Positions 36,649-43,431 of a stretch of DNA of 45,170 nucleotides are shown here, piece by piece. Source of the stretch: Elusimicrobiota bacterium (GTDB taxonomy: Bacteria; Elusimicrobiota; Elusimicrobia; UBA1565; UBA9628); assembly GCA_003151975.1 (NCBI GenBank), contig PLZD01000019.1:1-45170 (forward strand), read 5' to 3'. The stretch's first letter is position 1. Every line of letters begins with the position of its first letter. Below the pieces are notes generated by a model. That model saw nothing but the letters and a program-made list of their open reading frames with translations. It did not search any database and was not told the origin of the DNA. The position numbers and the translations under genes were made by a program.

Positions 36649-37709
36649 AGGGCGTATTCGATCGCGCATGCGGCCGCCGTCTTCAGGATTTGTATCATAA
36701 GGGCATCAAAGCGGAAATCTTCAAAGCCGTCCATCAAGTCGCCAGGCCTCGCGGGGCGCCGTCGGCGGAGCAGTTCGCCTTCGTTGAAGGCCCGCTGCCC
36801 GTGCCCGGCCCGGGCGAGGCGCTGGTCGAGAATCTCTATCTCTCGGTCGATCCCTACATGCGCGAGATGATGGACGGCGGCTGGAAGCTCAACGCCCCGC
36901 TCGAGGGGCGGTCGGTGGGCCGCGTCGTCGAGTCCAATGAGCCCGCGCTCAAGCCCGGCCAGCTCGTCTTCCACCGGCAGGGTTGGCGCACGCACGCGGT
37001 GGTCAAGTCGAAGGACGTCCGCTTCCTCATGGAGCGTCCGGGCGTTCCCACGAGCGCCTACCTCGGAATCCTGGGCGGCACGGGCCTGAGCGCCTACATC
37101 GCGTTGGCCAAGGTCGCCAAGCTCGAGAAAGGGGAGGACGTGTTCATCACGTCGGCCGCCGGAGGCGTGGGCACCGCGGCGGGTCAAATCGCGCGGCTCA
37201 TGGGCGCGCGCCGCGTGGTCGGCAGCGCCGGCTCGCCGGCGAAGGTGCGGCATCTTTTGGACGAGCTTCATTTCGACGCCGCCTTCGATTATCACGCTGG
37301 GCCCATGCCCGAGCTGTTGGCCAAGGCCGCGCCCGAGGGCTTTCACGTCTGCGTCGAGAACGTCGGCGGCGAGCAGTTGGAGGCGGCCATCGGCGCCATG
37401 CGTCCGCACGGGCGCATCGCGTGGGTGGGAGCCGTCGCGCAGTACAACGACCTGAAAGCGCCCCCGCCCGCCCCGCGCAACCTCTACGACGTGGTGAGCA
37501 AGAGCCTGCGGCTCGAGGGATTCCTGGTGCGCGATTACAACCATGCGCAGAACGAGCTCGAGGAATTTCTGGCGCCCCACATCGGCTCCGGGCGCGTGCG
37601 CCTCGAGGAGACGGTGGTCGAGGGCTTCGAGAACATCGTGACGGCTTTCCTGGGCGTCATGAAAGGAGCCAACGTCGGAAAGATGATCGTGAAGGCCGCT
37701 CAGCCGTAG
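36645..37709 (+). CDS. Zinc-independent MDR oxidoreductase (NADPH-dependent, CurA-like)
   Basis: A 354-residue medium-chain dehydrogenase/reductase of the 2-alkenal/curcumin reductase-type branch. The cofactor site is AAGGVGTAAGQIARLMGAR (171-189), with VENVGGE and the catalytic-tyrosine-type DPYMR (69-73). Typical family proteins begin near residue 27 here (KAVHQVARPRGAPSAEQF), so the N-terminal 26 residues, starting at ATG 36645, may be a wrong start; other in-frame starts are not clearly better. The ATG overlaps the stop of the MFS gene (ATGA). Substrates are electron-poor enones by family; it may tailor the cluster product or be housekeeping. Confidence 0.82.
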   Translation: MKGVFDRACGRRLQDLYHKGIKAEIFKAVHQVARPRGAPSAEQFAFVEGPLPVPGPGEALVENLYLSVDPYMREMMDGGWKLNAPLEGRSVGRVVESNEPALKPGQLVFHRQGWRTHAVVKSKDVRFLMERPGVPTSAYLGILGGTGLSAYIALAKVAKLEKGEDVFITSAAGGVGTAAGQIARLMGARRVVGSAGSPAKVRHLLDELHFDAAFDYHAGPMPELLAKAAPEGFHVCVENVGGEQLEAAIGAMRPHGRIAWVGAVAQYNDLKAPPPAPRNLYDVVSKSLRLEGFLVRDYNHAQNELEEFLAPHIGSGRVRLEETVVEGFENIVTAFLGVMKGANVGKMIVKAAQP

Positions 37710-38035
37710 ACGGCAAGGCCCAGCACGACCTCGGTCATCGCGTCCGGCGCGCCGGTGAAGCGCAAACCGTACTCCTTGGGGGCAATCCAGGCGACCACAG
37801 CCTCGAACTTGCCGAACCGGCCGACTTCAAGCCGAACCGCAGTTCCCATTTCGAGGTGCGCGTCGATGGAAATCTTCGCGCCGCCGGGAGAGATGTTCTC
37901 GATGAGGCAGTCATGCCAATGCCCGTGCTCCTCGAGACGGCCGTGAAGATTGGGCGCGGCGATCTGGATTTTGGCCGCGTGGCGGACCGGCTTGCGCGCG
38001 TGGCGCCGCCGCTCGGCCCCGGTCTTGGTCGTCAT
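37700..38035 (-). CDS. PilZ-domain c-di-GMP receptor
   Basis: A 111-residue PilZ protein that would bind c-di-GMP and act by contact with a partner. The RxxxR-type N-terminal switch lies in ERRRHARKPVR (about 8-18), and the second motif is ENISPGGAKISID (about 50-62). The start is ATG at 38033-38035, which overlaps the stop of the GAF-PAS-cyclase gene by four bases (ATGA) and is preceded by GGAGGAGAA. The coupling suggests a shared signalling role with the cyclase. Its stop overlaps the end of the MDR gene on the other strand. Confidence 0.85.
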   Translation of the reverse strand: MTTKTGAERRRHARKPVRHAAKIQIAAPNLHGRLEEHGHWHDCLIENISPGGAKISIDAHLEMGTAVRLEVGRFGKFEAVVAWIAPKEYGLRFTGAPDAMTEVVLGLAVYG

Positions 38036-40287
38036 TTCTCCTCCATCGCCCAGACGCCGTTCCACTCGGACTCCGGCGGCCGGCTCTTGAGGCGCTCGCA
38101 GCGGTCGACGTAATACTTGGAAACCTTGTCTTCCGGGTGCAGGCGCAGGGCTTCGTGAAAAGCCTTGATGGCCTGGTCCCAGCGGCCCGCCGCGTACGCC
38201 TTGCGGCCTTCGGCGAAATGGCCCGTGACTTCCATGAGCCGCGGGAAGCTCTCCTCGGAGTGATGGTCGAGGACTTCGTAGATTCTGACGGGCTTGGTCT
38301 TGCCCTTGACGACGACGTCGTCGATGTCGCGCAGGCGGTAAGTCCCTTTAAGCTTCTTGTAGGTTCCCTCGCTCAGCAGAATGCGGGCGCCGTAGTGCTT
38401 GCACGCGGACTCAAGACGCGCGGCGAGATTGACGCCGTCGCCGATCATCGTGTAGTCCATCCGCTTCGGAGAGCCGATGTTGCCGGAGACGACCGTGTCC
38501 GTGTTGAGGCCGATGCCGATCTCGATGGGTTTGCGGCTCGCTTTGATGCGATAGCCGTTCCAAACGCGCAGTTCCGAGAGCATCGCGACGGCACAGCGCA
38601 CGGCGCGGTCCTCGTCGTCGGCGTGGGCGACCGGCACGCCGAAGCCGGCCATGAGGGCGTCGCCGATGAACTTATCGAGGATGCCGCCCTCGGCCTGAAT
38701 GCAGTCGACCATCAAAGTAAAGTACTTGTTGAGCAGATTGACCGTGGTCTGGGGCCCGAGCTCCTCGGAGAAAGTCGTGAAGCTCCGGATGTCCGAGAAC
38801 AGCACGGTGGCCAGCGTGCTCTTGCCGCCGAGTATGTCTTCGCCTCCGGACAGAAGCTGGTCGGCGCGCGCGGGGTCCATGTAGCGCGCCATCGTGGACT
38901 TCATGCGCTTCTCGCTCGAGATGTCGTCGAGCATGATCATCGTCCCGAGCGTCTTGCCCGAGCCGACCAGCGGCAGGACCGTCACGTTGGCCGAGACCGA
39001 AGCGCCCGAGAAGGAAAGCTCCGCGTCCATCGTGACGTCGGGCTGCTGGGTCTCTTCCACGCGGCGCACCTTGTCGACGACCCACGCGTTGCGCTCCGTG
39101 AAGAACGCGGCCGCGGCCTTTCCCAAGACGCGTGCTGTCTCGGTCTTCATCATGCGCAGGCCCGCCGCGTTGCAGGTCACGATCTTGCCCTCCTCGTCGA
39201 GGGTGACGACGCCGTTGCTCATGCTCTGCAGCATGCTCTCGTTGTAATTCTTCATCCGCTGAACGTCGGCGAAAAGCTTGGCGTTCTCGAGCGCGATGGA
39301 AATCTGCGCGGTGAAGGCCCGCAGGCGGGCCTCGTCCTCGTCGCTGAAAGGGCCGCCCTGACGGTTGAGCACCTGGGTGACGCCGATGACCTTGCCCTGC
39401 TGGTTGACGATGGGAACGCAAAGGATCGAGCGCGTAAAAAATCCGGTCTTCTTGTCGAACGAAGGATTAAATCGCATGTCGGCGTAGGCGTGGGGAATGT
39501 TGACCGACTTGCCGCTGCTAAAGACCGCGCCGGCGATGCCGAGGTGGTTGGGAAAGCGGATCTGGGTCGCCTCGATGCCTTCGCCCAGGAGCGACCACAA
39601 CTCGCCGGTCTTTTCGTCGTTGAGGAAGAGCGTCGAGCGCTCGGCCTGCAGCAGGCGGGTCGCCTCGCTCATGACCTTGCGCAGCAGCGTGCCGAGGTCG
39701 ATCTCCGAGGTGACATCGGCGACCACGTCGAGAAACGCCTTCTCCTTGGCCTGGGACTGCCGCATTTTCTCGATGTCCTGGGCGCCGTGCAGGGCGACGG
39801 AGGCCTGGGCGGTCATGGCCTCGAGGAGCGAAAGATCCGAGCGCGTGAAGCGGCCTCGCTTCTTGTTGAGGACCTGGGCCACGCCTTCGATCTCGCCCTT
39901 GACCGAGACGATGGGGGCGCAGACCATGCTCTTGGTCTTGAAGCCGGTCTGCTGGTCGATTTCGCGGTGGAAGCGCTTGTCGCGGGCGACGTCTTGAACG
40001 ATATCGCCGCGTCCCGTCTGAAAAACGTCGCCCGCGATGCCCAGCGCGTTGGGGATGCGGATGCGGCGCTTGGAGGTCCCCTGCGCCACGAGCGAGAAGA
40101 GCTCGTTGGTCTTGGGATCGTTGAGGAAAAGCGAGCCGCGCTCGGCGCCGAGCTCTGCGGTCGTCATCTTGACCAGGGCCTCGAGTATGTCGTCGAGCGA
40201 GTCGATGGCCGCGAGCTTGCGCGAGATCGAAAGCAGCATCTCGGCCTGCGCGAGCATTTTCGCCGGACGCGACGCGCGTCGCTTCAT
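38032..40287 (-). CDS. GAF-GAF-PAS-adenylate/guanylate cyclase-TPR protein
   Basis: A 751-residue soluble signalling protein. Two GAF domains (about 25-165 and 195-345) each hold the repeated RIPNALGIAGDVF or RFPNHLGIAGAVF motif and a KKTGF/QTGF segment. They are followed by a PAS domain (360-465), a class III cyclase domain (about 490-670: ATVLFSDIRSFTTFSEELGP with a metal Asp, and GDALMAGFG with the second) and TPR-like helices (690-735). Both metal sites are intact, so cyclic nucleotide production is expected. The ATG overlaps the coiled-coil gene's stop by four bases (ATGA). Confidence 0.9.
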   Translation of the reverse strand: MKRRASRPAKMLAQAEMLLSISRKLAAIDSLDDILEALVKMTTAELGAERGSLFLNDPKTNELFSLVAQGTSKRRIRIPNALGIAGDVFQTGRGDIVQDVARDKRFHREIDQQTGFKTKSMVCAPIVSVKGEIEGVAQVLNKKRGRFTRSDLSLLEAMTAQASVALHGAQDIEKMRQSQAKEKAFLDVVADVTSEIDLGTLLRKVMSEATRLLQAERSTLFLNDEKTGELWSLLGEGIEATQIRFPNHLGIAGAVFSSGKSVNIPHAYADMRFNPSFDKKTGFFTRSILCVPIVNQQGKVIGVTQVLNRQGGPFSDEDEARLRAFTAQISIALENAKLFADVQRMKNYNESMLQSMSNGVVTLDEEGKIVTCNAAGLRMMKTETARVLGKAAAAFFTERNAWVVDKVRRVEETQQPDVTMDAELSFSGASVSANVTVLPLVGSGKTLGTMIMLDDISSEKRMKSTMARYMDPARADQLLSGGEDILGGKSTLATVLFSDIRSFTTFSEELGPQTTVNLLNKYFTLMVDCIQAEGGILDKFIGDALMAGFGVPVAHADDEDRAVRCAVAMLSELRVWNGYRIKASRKPIEIGIGLNTDTVVSGNIGSPKRMDYTMIGDGVNLAARLESACKHYGARILLSEGTYKKLKGTYRLRDIDDVVVKGKTKPVRIYEVLDHHSEESFPRLMEVTGHFAEGRKAYAAGRWDQAIKAFHEALRLHPEDKVSKYYVDRCERLKSRPPESEWNGVWAMEEK

Positions 40288-40624: not shown

Positions 40625-42538
40625 GTGCTCAAAGGCCTCGCTCGACGCTGCCTGATCATCGCCTTGGCCATCCTGGCCGCGGCGCCCGCGCGGCCGCAAG
40701 GCCAAAACCGGACCGCCCCGACCGCTCCGGTCATCGTCACGCTCCCCGTCGCCGTCTCGCAAGTCCTGCCCGTAAATATCGATCGGTCCATTTCGATTCC
40801 AAGCAACGCGGCACTGGAGCTCCCCGGCCAGATCCCGAACCTCCCCCCATCGTCGCTGGCGCCCGAAGTTCAAGCCATGATCCAGGCGGAAACGCCGGCG
40901 GCGCCGATCGAGACTCCCGCGATCATCCAGAAAAACGAGGCGCGCGCGCAGGCCTTGCTCGACCGGACCGCGCTCAAGCGCGACGGTCAACAGGAAAAGC
41001 CCGCCGGCGTCGGGGATTCGCACTGGACCGCCGTCTTCGACGGCCTCTCGGCGCGGACCGGCAAGACGGCGGACCTTCCGCGCGTCTCCGTCTCGCAGGC
41101 GCCCGCCGCTAAAAGCTATCTCGCCGAGACCCGCGGCCTTGGCGGCGCCGAGCTCGTCTCCAAGCTTCACGAGCTCTCCGGCCGCGGCGCCAAGATCAAG
41201 CACTACGACGAGGCCAAGTCCTACATGTTCGACAAGGCCGACCACGTCGAGCGCGGCGGCAAGACGGGTCTCGTCGACGCCTACTCCGGCATCTTCGTCC
41301 CCGGCACCGGCTCCGACGGCGGCGCGTACAAGGAGCGCGGCGACCAGAACCACGACGGCTACATCGACAGCGGCGGCATGAACGTCGAGCACGTCTGGCC
41401 CCAATCCTTCTTCAACAAGGCCGAGCCGATGCGCGCCGACCTGCACCATCTGATGGCGACGTTCATGCACCCCAACGGCGAGCGCGGCAACCTGCCTTTC
41501 GGCGAGGTGAAGGGCCGGCCCGAGTACCACAACGACGCCGGCGCGAAAATGGGCGGGGGCGTTTTCGAGCCGCCGGACCTGGCCAAGGGCCGCGTCGCGC
41601 GCTCGCTGCTCTACTTCTACACGCGCTACTACGACAAGCGCATCTTCTCAGGCAATTTCAACCAGGGTTTTTGGGACGAGAAGCTGCCGATGCTCCTGCG
41701 CTGGAACCGCGAGCATCCGCCGGACGACTTCGAGCGCGCGCGCAACGACGCCGTCGAGAGCTTCCAAGGAAACCGCAATCCCTTCGTCGATGACCACACC
41801 TTGGCCGACCGGATCGGCGAGACCGCCTTTAAGACCGGCAATCGCTACGGCGTGCGCCGCGGCTCGGCCAACTACGGCCTCACGGCCGCAGCGCCCGTGC
41901 TTCAGCCCGAGCACGTCGTCGTCGGCGCGCGGATGCGCCCGACCCCCAACAAGCTGGGCCGTCCCCTACGACTCATCATCACGGGTCCTCCGGGGGCGGG
42001 CAAAGGCACCTTCTCGGAGAAGATCTCGGCGGAATACGGCGTGCCGCACATCTCGGTCGGAGAACTGCTGCGCGAGCACGCCAAGACCCACCCGGCGGTG
42101 GCCGCGGTGATGGCCAAGGGCAAGCTCGTCGACACGAGCTTGGTCCTGGCCGTGGTCCGCGAGCGGCTCAAACAGCCGGACGTGCGCTCCCGCGGCTTCA
42201 TCCTCGACGGCTTCCCGCGACGGCCCGTTGAGGCCGAAGCACTCTCACAGCTCCTGGGACCCGGCGGCGTCGACGGAGTGATCTCTCTCGACGTGCCGGA
42301 CGAGGAACTGCTGAGCCGCATCCTCGCGCGCGGCCGCGCCGACGACTCGCCGGCCGTATTCCAAGAGCGCATGAAGATCTACCGCGAGCAGACGGTGCCC
42401 GCCGTCGAGACTTTCGCCAAGGCCGCACCGGTCCTGGCTCCCGAGGTCAAGGGACACGACATCGCGACGAATTACGCGCGCGTGAAAGCCGCGCTCGAAG
42501 ACCTCATCAAAAACCTGGCACCTCGCAAGAAATTCTAG
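40625..42538 (+). CDS. Exported endonuclease I-adenylate kinase fusion protein
   Basis: A 637-residue protein with a Sec signal peptide (1-23), a long low-complexity region (25-125), an endonuclease I-type domain (about 165-415) and a C-terminal adenylate kinase (447-633). The nuclease part shows an EF-hand-like loop DQNHDGYID (240-248), MNVEHVWPQSFF (catalytic H256), LHHLMATFMHPNGERGNLPFG (N289). The kinase part shows GPPGAGKGTFSE (454-465), GFILDGFPRR (524-533) and the short LID RGRADDSPAVFQERM. Both active sites look intact. The start is GTG at 40625-40627. Fusing a secreted nuclease to an ATP/AMP kinase is very unusual. No frameshift is seen between them. Confidence 0.85.
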   Translation: MLKGLARRCLIIALAILAAAPARPQGQNRTAPTAPVIVTLPVAVSQVLPVNIDRSISIPSNAALELPGQIPNLPPSSLAPEVQAMIQAETPAAPIETPAIIQKNEARAQALLDRTALKRDGQQEKPAGVGDSHWTAVFDGLSARTGKTADLPRVSVSQAPAAKSYLAETRGLGGAELVSKLHELSGRGAKIKHYDEAKSYMFDKADHVERGGKTGLVDAYSGIFVPGTGSDGGAYKERGDQNHDGYIDSGGMNVEHVWPQSFFNKAEPMRADLHHLMATFMHPNGERGNLPFGEVKGRPEYHNDAGAKMGGGVFEPPDLAKGRVARSLLYFYTRYYDKRIFSGNFNQGFWDEKLPMLLRWNREHPPDDFERARNDAVESFQGNRNPFVDDHTLADRIGETAFKTGNRYGVRRGSANYGLTAAAPVLQPEHVVVGARMRPTPNKLGRPLRLIITGPPGAGKGTFSEKISAEYGVPHISVGELLREHAKTHPAVAAVMAKGKLVDTSLVLAVVRERLKQPDVRSRGFILDGFPRRPVEAEALSQLLGPGGVDGVISLDVPDEELLSRILARGRADDSPAVFQERMKIYREQTVPAVETFAKAAPVLAPEVKGHDIATNYARVKAALEDLIKNLAPRKKF

Positions 42539-42546
42539 CCCGCGTT

Positions 42547-42581
42547 CGTTGGTCCGAGCGTTCCGCTCAGATGGTCCAACG
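42547..42581 (+). terminator. Hairpin between convergent genes (possible bidirectional terminator)
   Basis: CGTTGG (42547-42552) pairs with CCAACG (42576-42581), enclosing a tight hairpin GAGCG-TTC-CGCTC (42556-42568). It lies just after the nuclease-kinase stop and overlaps the end of the PilZ gene on the other strand. No clear T-run follows. Confidence 0.35.
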
Positions 42582-42932
42582 TATTCCCTCCGCACCCCCC
42601 GGCGCGGTGCAACGAGCGATATAACCGTGAAGAGTCTCGCGGTCTTCCGCGCGAAGATTCAGGAATTGCAAACCAGCTTCAAAAGGGAATTTCCCTTTAT
42701 CGAGAGCGACGACCCACGCGACACGCGCAATCGCGAATACGGAAGTCCTCGAATCGAGGGCACGAATTTCGATCTCCAATAACGCATCTTTGGTGGGGAA
42801 CGACGGCAGTGGGATGCAGATTCCGGTTTCCGACATGTTCTTTCCCATTGAGCCGATGAGTTGATCATTTTCGATTTCACGGATTGACACTTCCAGGGTC
42901 GCGCTCAGTCTGATCGCTTTTCTTTTTTCCAT
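42567..42932 (-). CDS. PilZ-domain protein
   Basis: A 121-residue PilZ-like protein. The N-terminal switch is MEKRKAIRLSATLEV (about 1-15), with KNMSETGICIPLPSF (about 31-45) as the second motif, where the residue order N-x-S-x-x-G is kept although the first Asp is lost. The C-terminal part has ARVAWVVALDKGKFPFEAGLQFL, a normal PilZ end. The start is ATG at 42930-42932; an ATG three codons upstream (42941) is possible. It is convergent with the nuclease-kinase gene and divergent from the next PilZ gene. Confidence 0.8.
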   Translation of the reverse strand: MEKRKAIRLSATLEVSIREIENDQLIGSMGKNMSETGICIPLPSFPTKDALLEIEIRALDSRTSVFAIARVAWVVALDKGKFPFEAGLQFLNLRAEDRETLHGYIARCTAPGGAEGIRWTI

Positions 42933-43131
42933 AGTCAGCATGTTCCAACAATGATCATAGCTCCCATTTATCGCCGCGAACCATCCGGGGAAATACGGTC
43001 GCGGCGCGGTGGTCCGTTTCACCGGATTTCGCCCGCCAGTAGAACTACTCAATCGACCCAGCATAACTTCGCATAGATACGGAGTTCTCGCGGGAGCATA
43101 CTAATCAGAGACGATATGGAGAAATGAATAT

Positions 43132-43431
43132 ATGAAGCGAGTGACCGCGGCCCTCATGGCGAAGGATAGCCGCCGCGCGCCGAGGGCCCGACATGATTCG
43201 GTCCTGGAGCTGTATGATTCCTCGGGCAAGTTCATCGCCGGAATCGGCAGGCTCATCGATGTGTCCAGGTCGGGCGCGTGCTTTGCGAGCAATTTGTCCT
43301 TGCCCGAAGGGGAAAAGTTCAGCGCGCGCCTGCGGCTGCTGGGCGAAGCCATCCACGACTGCCGCGCGCGCATCATCTGGGCCCGCAGGAAGAACAACGC
43401 CATCCTCTACGGGATCGAGTTCGAACGATAG
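43132..43431 (+). CDS. PilZ-domain protein
   Basis: A 99-residue PilZ protein. The switch is DSRRAPRARHDS (about 12-23), with RLIDVSRSGACFASN (about 40-54), an exact D-x-S-x-x-G motif, and CRARIIWARRKNNAILYGIEFE at the end. All features for c-di-GMP binding are present. GGAG lies upstream of the ATG at 43132. It is divergent from the other PilZ gene. With the two GGDEF proteins elsewhere in the window, this supports an active c-di-GMP network. Confidence 0.85.
   Translation: MKRVTAALMAKDSRRAPRARHDSVLELYDSSGKFIAGIGRLIDVSRSGACFASNLSLPEGEKFSARLRLLGEAIHDCRARIIWARRKNNAILYGIEFER

Follow-up and report, generated by a model that had tools for sequence, protein, structure and literature searches.

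A 637-aa protein in which a signal peptide, a long Pro/Ala/Val-rich leader, an endonuclease I domain and a short-LID adenylate-kinase-type domain follow one another in this order is encoded in the Elusimicrobiota DNA analysed here, a 45,170-nt window corresponding to a whole contig of a 4.64-Mb draft assembly (68 contigs). The protein joins two known families in a new way; its kinase half stems from a new clade of exported, adenylate-kinase-like enzymes in which the base pocket has changed. The best explanation overall, to which we give about an even chance, is that of an exported two-enzyme protein made up of a nuclease and an altered-pocket NMP kinase. The features of the gene and of its product are listed in Table 1.

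Table 1. Features of the fusion gene and of the encoded protein; positions refer to the 45,170-nt window.
Feature	Position (nt)	Strand	Residues and remarks
Fusion gene	40625..42538	+	GTG start, TAG stop, 637 aa
Signal peptide	40625..40690	+	residues 1-22; core CLIIALAILAA after KGLARR; A-x-A-type site
Pro/Ala/Val-rich leader, probably disordered	40691..41095	+	residues 23-157, ~135 residues
Endonuclease I domain	41132..41821	+	residues 170-399; PF04231
EF-hand-like loop GDQNHDGYIDSGGM	41339..41380	+	directly N-terminal to the nuclease active site
E255-H256 (= Vvn E79-H80)	41387..41392	+	invariant in 21/21 rows
N284 (aligns with Vvn metal ligand N127)	41474..41476	+	invariant in 21/21 rows
Interdomain linker	41822..41962	+	residues 400-446; in frame
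NMP-kinase domain, adenylate-kinase type, short LID	41963..42535	+	residues 447-637; PF00406
P-loop GPPGAGKGT	41984..42010	+	K13 equivalent kept, 20/20 rows with sequence there
V478 (= E. coli Thr31)	42056..42058	+	from alignment
E536 (= E. coli Gln92, AK1 Gln101; adenine reader)	42230..42232	+	from alignment

No internal stop interrupts the 637 codons, and GAGAG, a plausible ribosome site, is located just 5' of the GTG. Third-position G+C ranges from 0.81 to 0.94 over the whole frame, linker included, with 0.89 in the 80 codons ahead of the junction, 0.84 in the 80 spanning it and 0.89 in the 80 that follow, so that the coding pattern is kept. The single unbroken frame joining nuclease and kinase described in an earlier note on this DNA is thus confirmed, and the frameshift between the two parts, which the same note had named as the finding that would speak against it, does not occur. 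That two genes were joined during assembly or binning is highly improbable: the assembly is indeed a draft with 3.6% contamination and the fusion is present in a single genome, but the join is in frame, at the domain edges and through a coding-like linker, the nearest relatives of both halves belong to the same order, and neither half was found elsewhere in the source genome. The linker sits where stand-alone kinases carry their signal peptide and leader.

The N-terminus reads MLKGLARRCLIIALAILAAAPA, continuing with RPQ, and cleavage is probably after APA, according to simple scoring rather than a trained predictor. By the same simple scoring, the export signal previously proposed for the fusion is present, and it is conserved among the relatives; the RR ahead of the hydrophobic core makes Tat export also conceivable. 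Leaders comparable to that of the fusion were found in stand-alone nucleases and kinases of the relatives, as well as in other exported-type proteins of the source genome.

The nuclease assignment is based on a match of residues 209-390 with Endonuclease_1 (PF04231; E 2.4e-38, 132.6 bits versus a curated cut-off of 25) and on the match of the nuclease profile with Vvn in the PDB (1oup, E 3e-13); identity with the stand-alone relatives is 60-65%. All Foldseek matches of the nuclease model with E below 1e-3 were Vvn/Vibrio EndA, the agreement in fold being modest (best E about 1e-5, TM 0.44-0.52, model pLDDT 80). Because aligning the whole fusion with the two types of relatives placed the second part of the nuclease wrongly, the two domains were modelled separately. 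The metal and general-base residues Glu, His and Asn of the family are all present (E255, H256 and N284) and R287 is also invariant (21 rows); the correspondence of N284 with N127 derives from the alignment to 1oup, whose position was counted by hand, and the roles of E79, H80 and N127 have been described for the Vvn family (PMC5305256). Concerning the two nuclease residues formerly reported as intact, H256 stands as an invariant position, whereas N289 is variable across the family (N in 9/21 rows), the conserved metal-site Asn being N284. With such an active site, the domain is predicted to cut both DNA and RNA. The EF-hand-like loop close to it, reading GDQNHDGYIDSGG and showing in most family members the pattern GDxNxDGxxD, would fit a calcium-rich milieu outside the cell. 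Compared with endonuclease I / EndA / Vvn (PF04231; 1ouo, 1oup, 2g7e, 2pu3), the fusion has in common the Glu-His plus Asn active site, the export signal and the fold, and adds the long Pro/Ala-rich leader, the EF-hand-like loop and the C-terminal kinase.

The C-terminal domain matched ADK (PF00406) over residues 452-600 (E 5.5e-33, 114.7 bits versus a cut-off of 26.8), and its model (pLDDT 93) retrieved the M. tuberculosis adenylate kinase 2cdn as top PDB match (E 1.2e-16); none of the listed NCBIfam adenylate-kinase models was reached at its cut-off, the best score being 141 versus 187 bits. Residues were compared in an alignment of 21 exported and 18 housekeeping kinases, numbered according to the E. 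coli enzyme. K13, R36, R88, R119, R123, R156, D158, D159 and R167 are conserved in all exported kinases whose sequence covers these positions, whereas the two residues reading the AMP base in adenylate kinase, Thr31 and Gln92, are not kept in the fusion (V478 and E536). The change extends to the whole exported clade, with Val (17), Ala (2) or Ser (2) at position 31 versus Thr (16) or Ser (2) in housekeeping kinases, and Glu (19) or Asp (2) at position 92, i.e., acidic in 21/21, versus Gln in 18/18. The domain was formerly regarded as a complete adenylate kinase, a definition that holds for the phosphoryl-transfer residues and fails for the nucleobase pocket. From these positions we infer a working NMP kinase with a changed or broadened base preference, probably preferring, or additionally accepting, an NMP other than AMP. 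As glutamate only accepts hydrogen bonds, the pocket would suit a base carrying an N-H on its Watson-Crick edge (guanine or uracil, for example), and purely on this hydrogen-bond logic we hypothesise that guanine or uracil is favoured over adenine. Since no catalytic residue has been lost, the reading of the kinase as a regulatory, non-catalytic module was dropped.

Alternatively, the kinase part might be an ordinary AMP kinase for which the Gln-to-Glu replacement is immaterial and which, once exported, interconverts AMP, ADP and ATP outside. We regard this as possible but doubtful: the catalytic residues are all retained and the top structural match is a true adenylate kinase, but the acidic residue at the Gln92 site together with the loss of Thr31 is a clade-wide uniform change, unlikely to be neutral, and at the same position of AK1, Q101, an AMP-site residue, the patient substitution Q101K goes with low activity (PMC8317388). 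With short-LID adenylate kinases (M. tuberculosis Adk 2cdn, AK1) the altered-pocket kinase shares the fold, the P-loop, all the catalytic arginines and the RADD motif; it differs from them in the signal peptide, in Gln92 to Glu and Thr31 to Val, and in falling in a clade apart from the organism's own adk. By alignment, one domain of human AK9, reading DGFPRHPEEAQFL, likewise has Glu in place of Gln92; AK9, indicated as a nucleoside mono- and diphosphate kinase (Amiri 2013, cited in PMC10248530), is a multi-domain eukaryotic protein without the nuclease-kinase architecture. Another natural fusion, the Zobellia galactanivorans HGPRT/adenylate kinase, also carries a C-terminal adenylate-kinase domain behind a nucleotide-metabolism enzyme, and both of its activities were measured; its partner is, however, a phosphoribosyltransferase, and a signal peptide is unmentioned in the paper (PMC7326950).

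Besides the fusion, PF00406 matched one protein of the source genome, a 217-aa adenylate kinase whose LID bears cysteines (zinc type) and which is encoded on contig 14 in a secY-adk-map operon; between secY and map is the usual place of the housekeeping adk. The separate adk that the earlier note had suggested looking for thus exists and, given this ordinary enzyme, the fused kinase is a second, specialised kinase of the genome.

To place the fusion among its relatives, 97 of these and 341 genomes of the phylum were compared. The fusion occurs only in the source genome among the 341, nuclease and kinase being separate genes in the relatives, and no plasmid or phage record covered 80% of the query (0 records). 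A single pattern-based scan of genome contigs, through which phyla beyond Elusimicrobiota were reached, returned one relative only, a stand-alone nuclease of Elusimicrobia UBA9639, and the uniqueness of the fusion is accordingly claimed within the phylum. The absence of a second fusion in the phylum genomes, plasmids and phages searched is in accordance with the previous remark that no described protein of this kind was known to its author. The nearest kinases are those of genomes G027 and G011 (70-74% identity), followed by G016. In the maximum-likelihood tree, the exported kinases formed one clade separate from the housekeeping ones (100/99) and the fusion kinase was nested beside the stand-alone exported kinases of G016, G011 and G027 (100/97), a position implying that export preceded fusion. 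Signal peptides were indeed found, by simple scoring, in the fully assembled single-kinase relatives inspected and in nearly all the full-length nuclease relatives, and kinases encoded on their own likewise start with a signal peptide and a Pro/Ala-rich leader, as in L029 (MTLLLAVLLCFAGGASAQQ) and L028 (MRLTTLLALLLCAAPLSAQQ). The picture of a cytoplasmic housekeeping kinase placed inside a secreted protein has therefore to be abandoned, since the kinase belongs to a clade whose members, in the same order, bear signal peptides as stand-alone proteins.

Within the phylum, this type of kinase is restricted to the order of the source genome (21 genomes), the distribution of the nuclease being wider. 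Of the order genomes, 35 have the nuclease and 21 of these also the kinase paralog, which was found in none of the 21 that lack the nuclease (Fisher p 2e-6). This co-occurrence gives weak support to a link, since genome size acts as a confounder: the mean is 3.9 Mb for genomes with both genes and 2.3 Mb for those with neither. No shared gene neighbourhood was found around the stand-alone kinases.

For an exported nuclease-kinase protein, the following sequence of events can be proposed. The signal peptide, present and conserved, would move the fusion out of the cytoplasm, where the endonuclease I domain, judging from its active site, would cut DNA and RNA, and the C-terminal domain, a presumably competent NMP kinase from an order-specific clade exported before the fusion arose, would phosphorylate an NMP, perhaps not AMP. 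Through the fusion, two enzymes of nucleic-acid and nucleotide turnover would remain side by side, whether in the periplasm, on the cell surface or in the medium. Their most likely role would be to scavenge or recycle nucleotides where lysed cells supply NTP, which is the weakest step of the proposal. Cleavage by endonuclease I enzymes is internal and produces oligonucleotides; nuclease and kinase thus make no simple pipeline, and a further nuclease would be needed to yield the NMP substrate. The former suggestion that nucleotides freed by digestion are then interconverted does not hold as a direct coupling, and the common factor of the two enzymes may be the place, i.e., nucleic-acid debris with NTP, and not substrate hand-over. 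Literature searches on secreted or extracellular bacterial adenylate kinase and on Elusimicrobiota export gave nothing on point.

The main difficulty for an exported kinase is that a phosphate donor is required and none is evident outside the cell. ATP-requiring kinases are unexpected where signal peptides lead, and here a whole clade carries them. In a 1.56-Mb sample of the genome, 30 of 513 signal-peptide-like frames showed a leader of this kind (by a simple filter, some being false), joined to amylase, GH15, glycogen debranching with subtilase, peptidase (M1, S41, trypsin-like) and metallophosphoesterase domains. ATP users of normally cytoplasmic kinds were also found behind such leaders, namely a complete Lon, an acyltransferase with AMP-binding synthetase and an ATP-grasp ligase, so that either NTP exists at the destination of the leader proteins, or the leader signifies something other than periplasmic export. 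Under the first option, the order might export an ATP-dependent set behind the shared Pro/Ala-rich leader (NMP kinases with new base specificity, a second Lon protease, an acyl-CoA-type synthetase and an ATP-grasp ligase) to a compartment or target outside with usable NTP, the fusion being one member; we advance this tentatively and consider it rather improbable. If the leader-bearing enzymes were truly outside, an unrecognised NTP source, e.g., lysed prey or host, would have to be there.

The Lon mentioned above (L081:9378-12884, plus strand, contig 8 of the source genome; 1168 aa with LON substrate domain, AAA and Lon_C) begins with a signal-peptide-like segment followed by a long Ala/Pro-rich leader, and another, normal Lon is encoded on contig 2. 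The synthetase (L084:16842-19568, minus strand, 908 aa) has a signal peptide and Pro/Ala leader, then acyltransferase and AMP-binding (acyl-CoA/ACP synthetase type) domains, and the ligase (L150:13728-17588, plus strand, 1286 aa) shows ATP-grasp / L-amino-acid-ligase-like domains. Two further leader-bearing proteins are larger: L076:7308-15908 (minus strand, 2866 aa), with subtilase, HEAT repeats, GH77 4-alpha-glucanotransferase and amylo-alpha-1,6-glucosidase, apparently an exported fusion of a protease with glycogen-debranching enzymes, and L119:10151-19240 (plus strand, 3029 aa), with VWA, TPR and DUF58 domains.

Under the second option there would be no ATP-free destination at all, the protein being held at the inner membrane or kept inside and the pair acting on cytoplasmic nucleic acid. 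The same kind of leader on Lon, synthetase and ligase, and the kinase found in some relatives behind PQ-loop-like membrane segments with positively charged loops, would agree with this; it is nonetheless unlikely, as many members have clear cleavable-type signal peptides (simple scoring), an active non-specific nuclease would harm the cell interior, and endonuclease I enzymes reside in the periplasm or outside the cell (PMC5305256). Still less credit is given to the idea that the protein serves in digestion, or acts on a host, after release into a eukaryote (host or prey) with its ample ATP: it would account for exported ATP users, the leader is also borne by amylases, a subtilase, peptidases and a debranching enzyme, and one large-genome member of the Elusimicrobiota has been recovered from an amoeba culture (PMC9476967), but neither a secretion-system link nor a targeting motif was found, which makes it very unlikely.

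In five relatives (L031:2679-5555, plus strand, L033, L034, L035 and L038), proteins of ~960 aa combine a signal-type N-terminus, a Pro/Ala region, a PQ-loop-like membrane part and a uridine-kinase-like domain (PF00485), and end in an altered-pocket NMP kinase. This kinase is possibly on the cytoplasmic side, and the topology of these proteins would reveal the side on which altered-pocket kinases act. A further leader-bearing protein (L040:2479-4854, plus strand, 792 aa) carries the altered-pocket kinase after a HEYAH zinc-peptidase-like motif.

As to the surroundings of the fusion gene, its neighbours in the window indicate no operon, the upstream gene being divergent and the downstream one convergent. 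The former (38032-40287, minus strand) codes for a GAF-GAF-PAS-class III nucleotide cyclase-TPR protein, and PilZ-domain genes, including the convergent one downstream, lie nearby at 37700-38065, 42567-43064 and 43132-43431.
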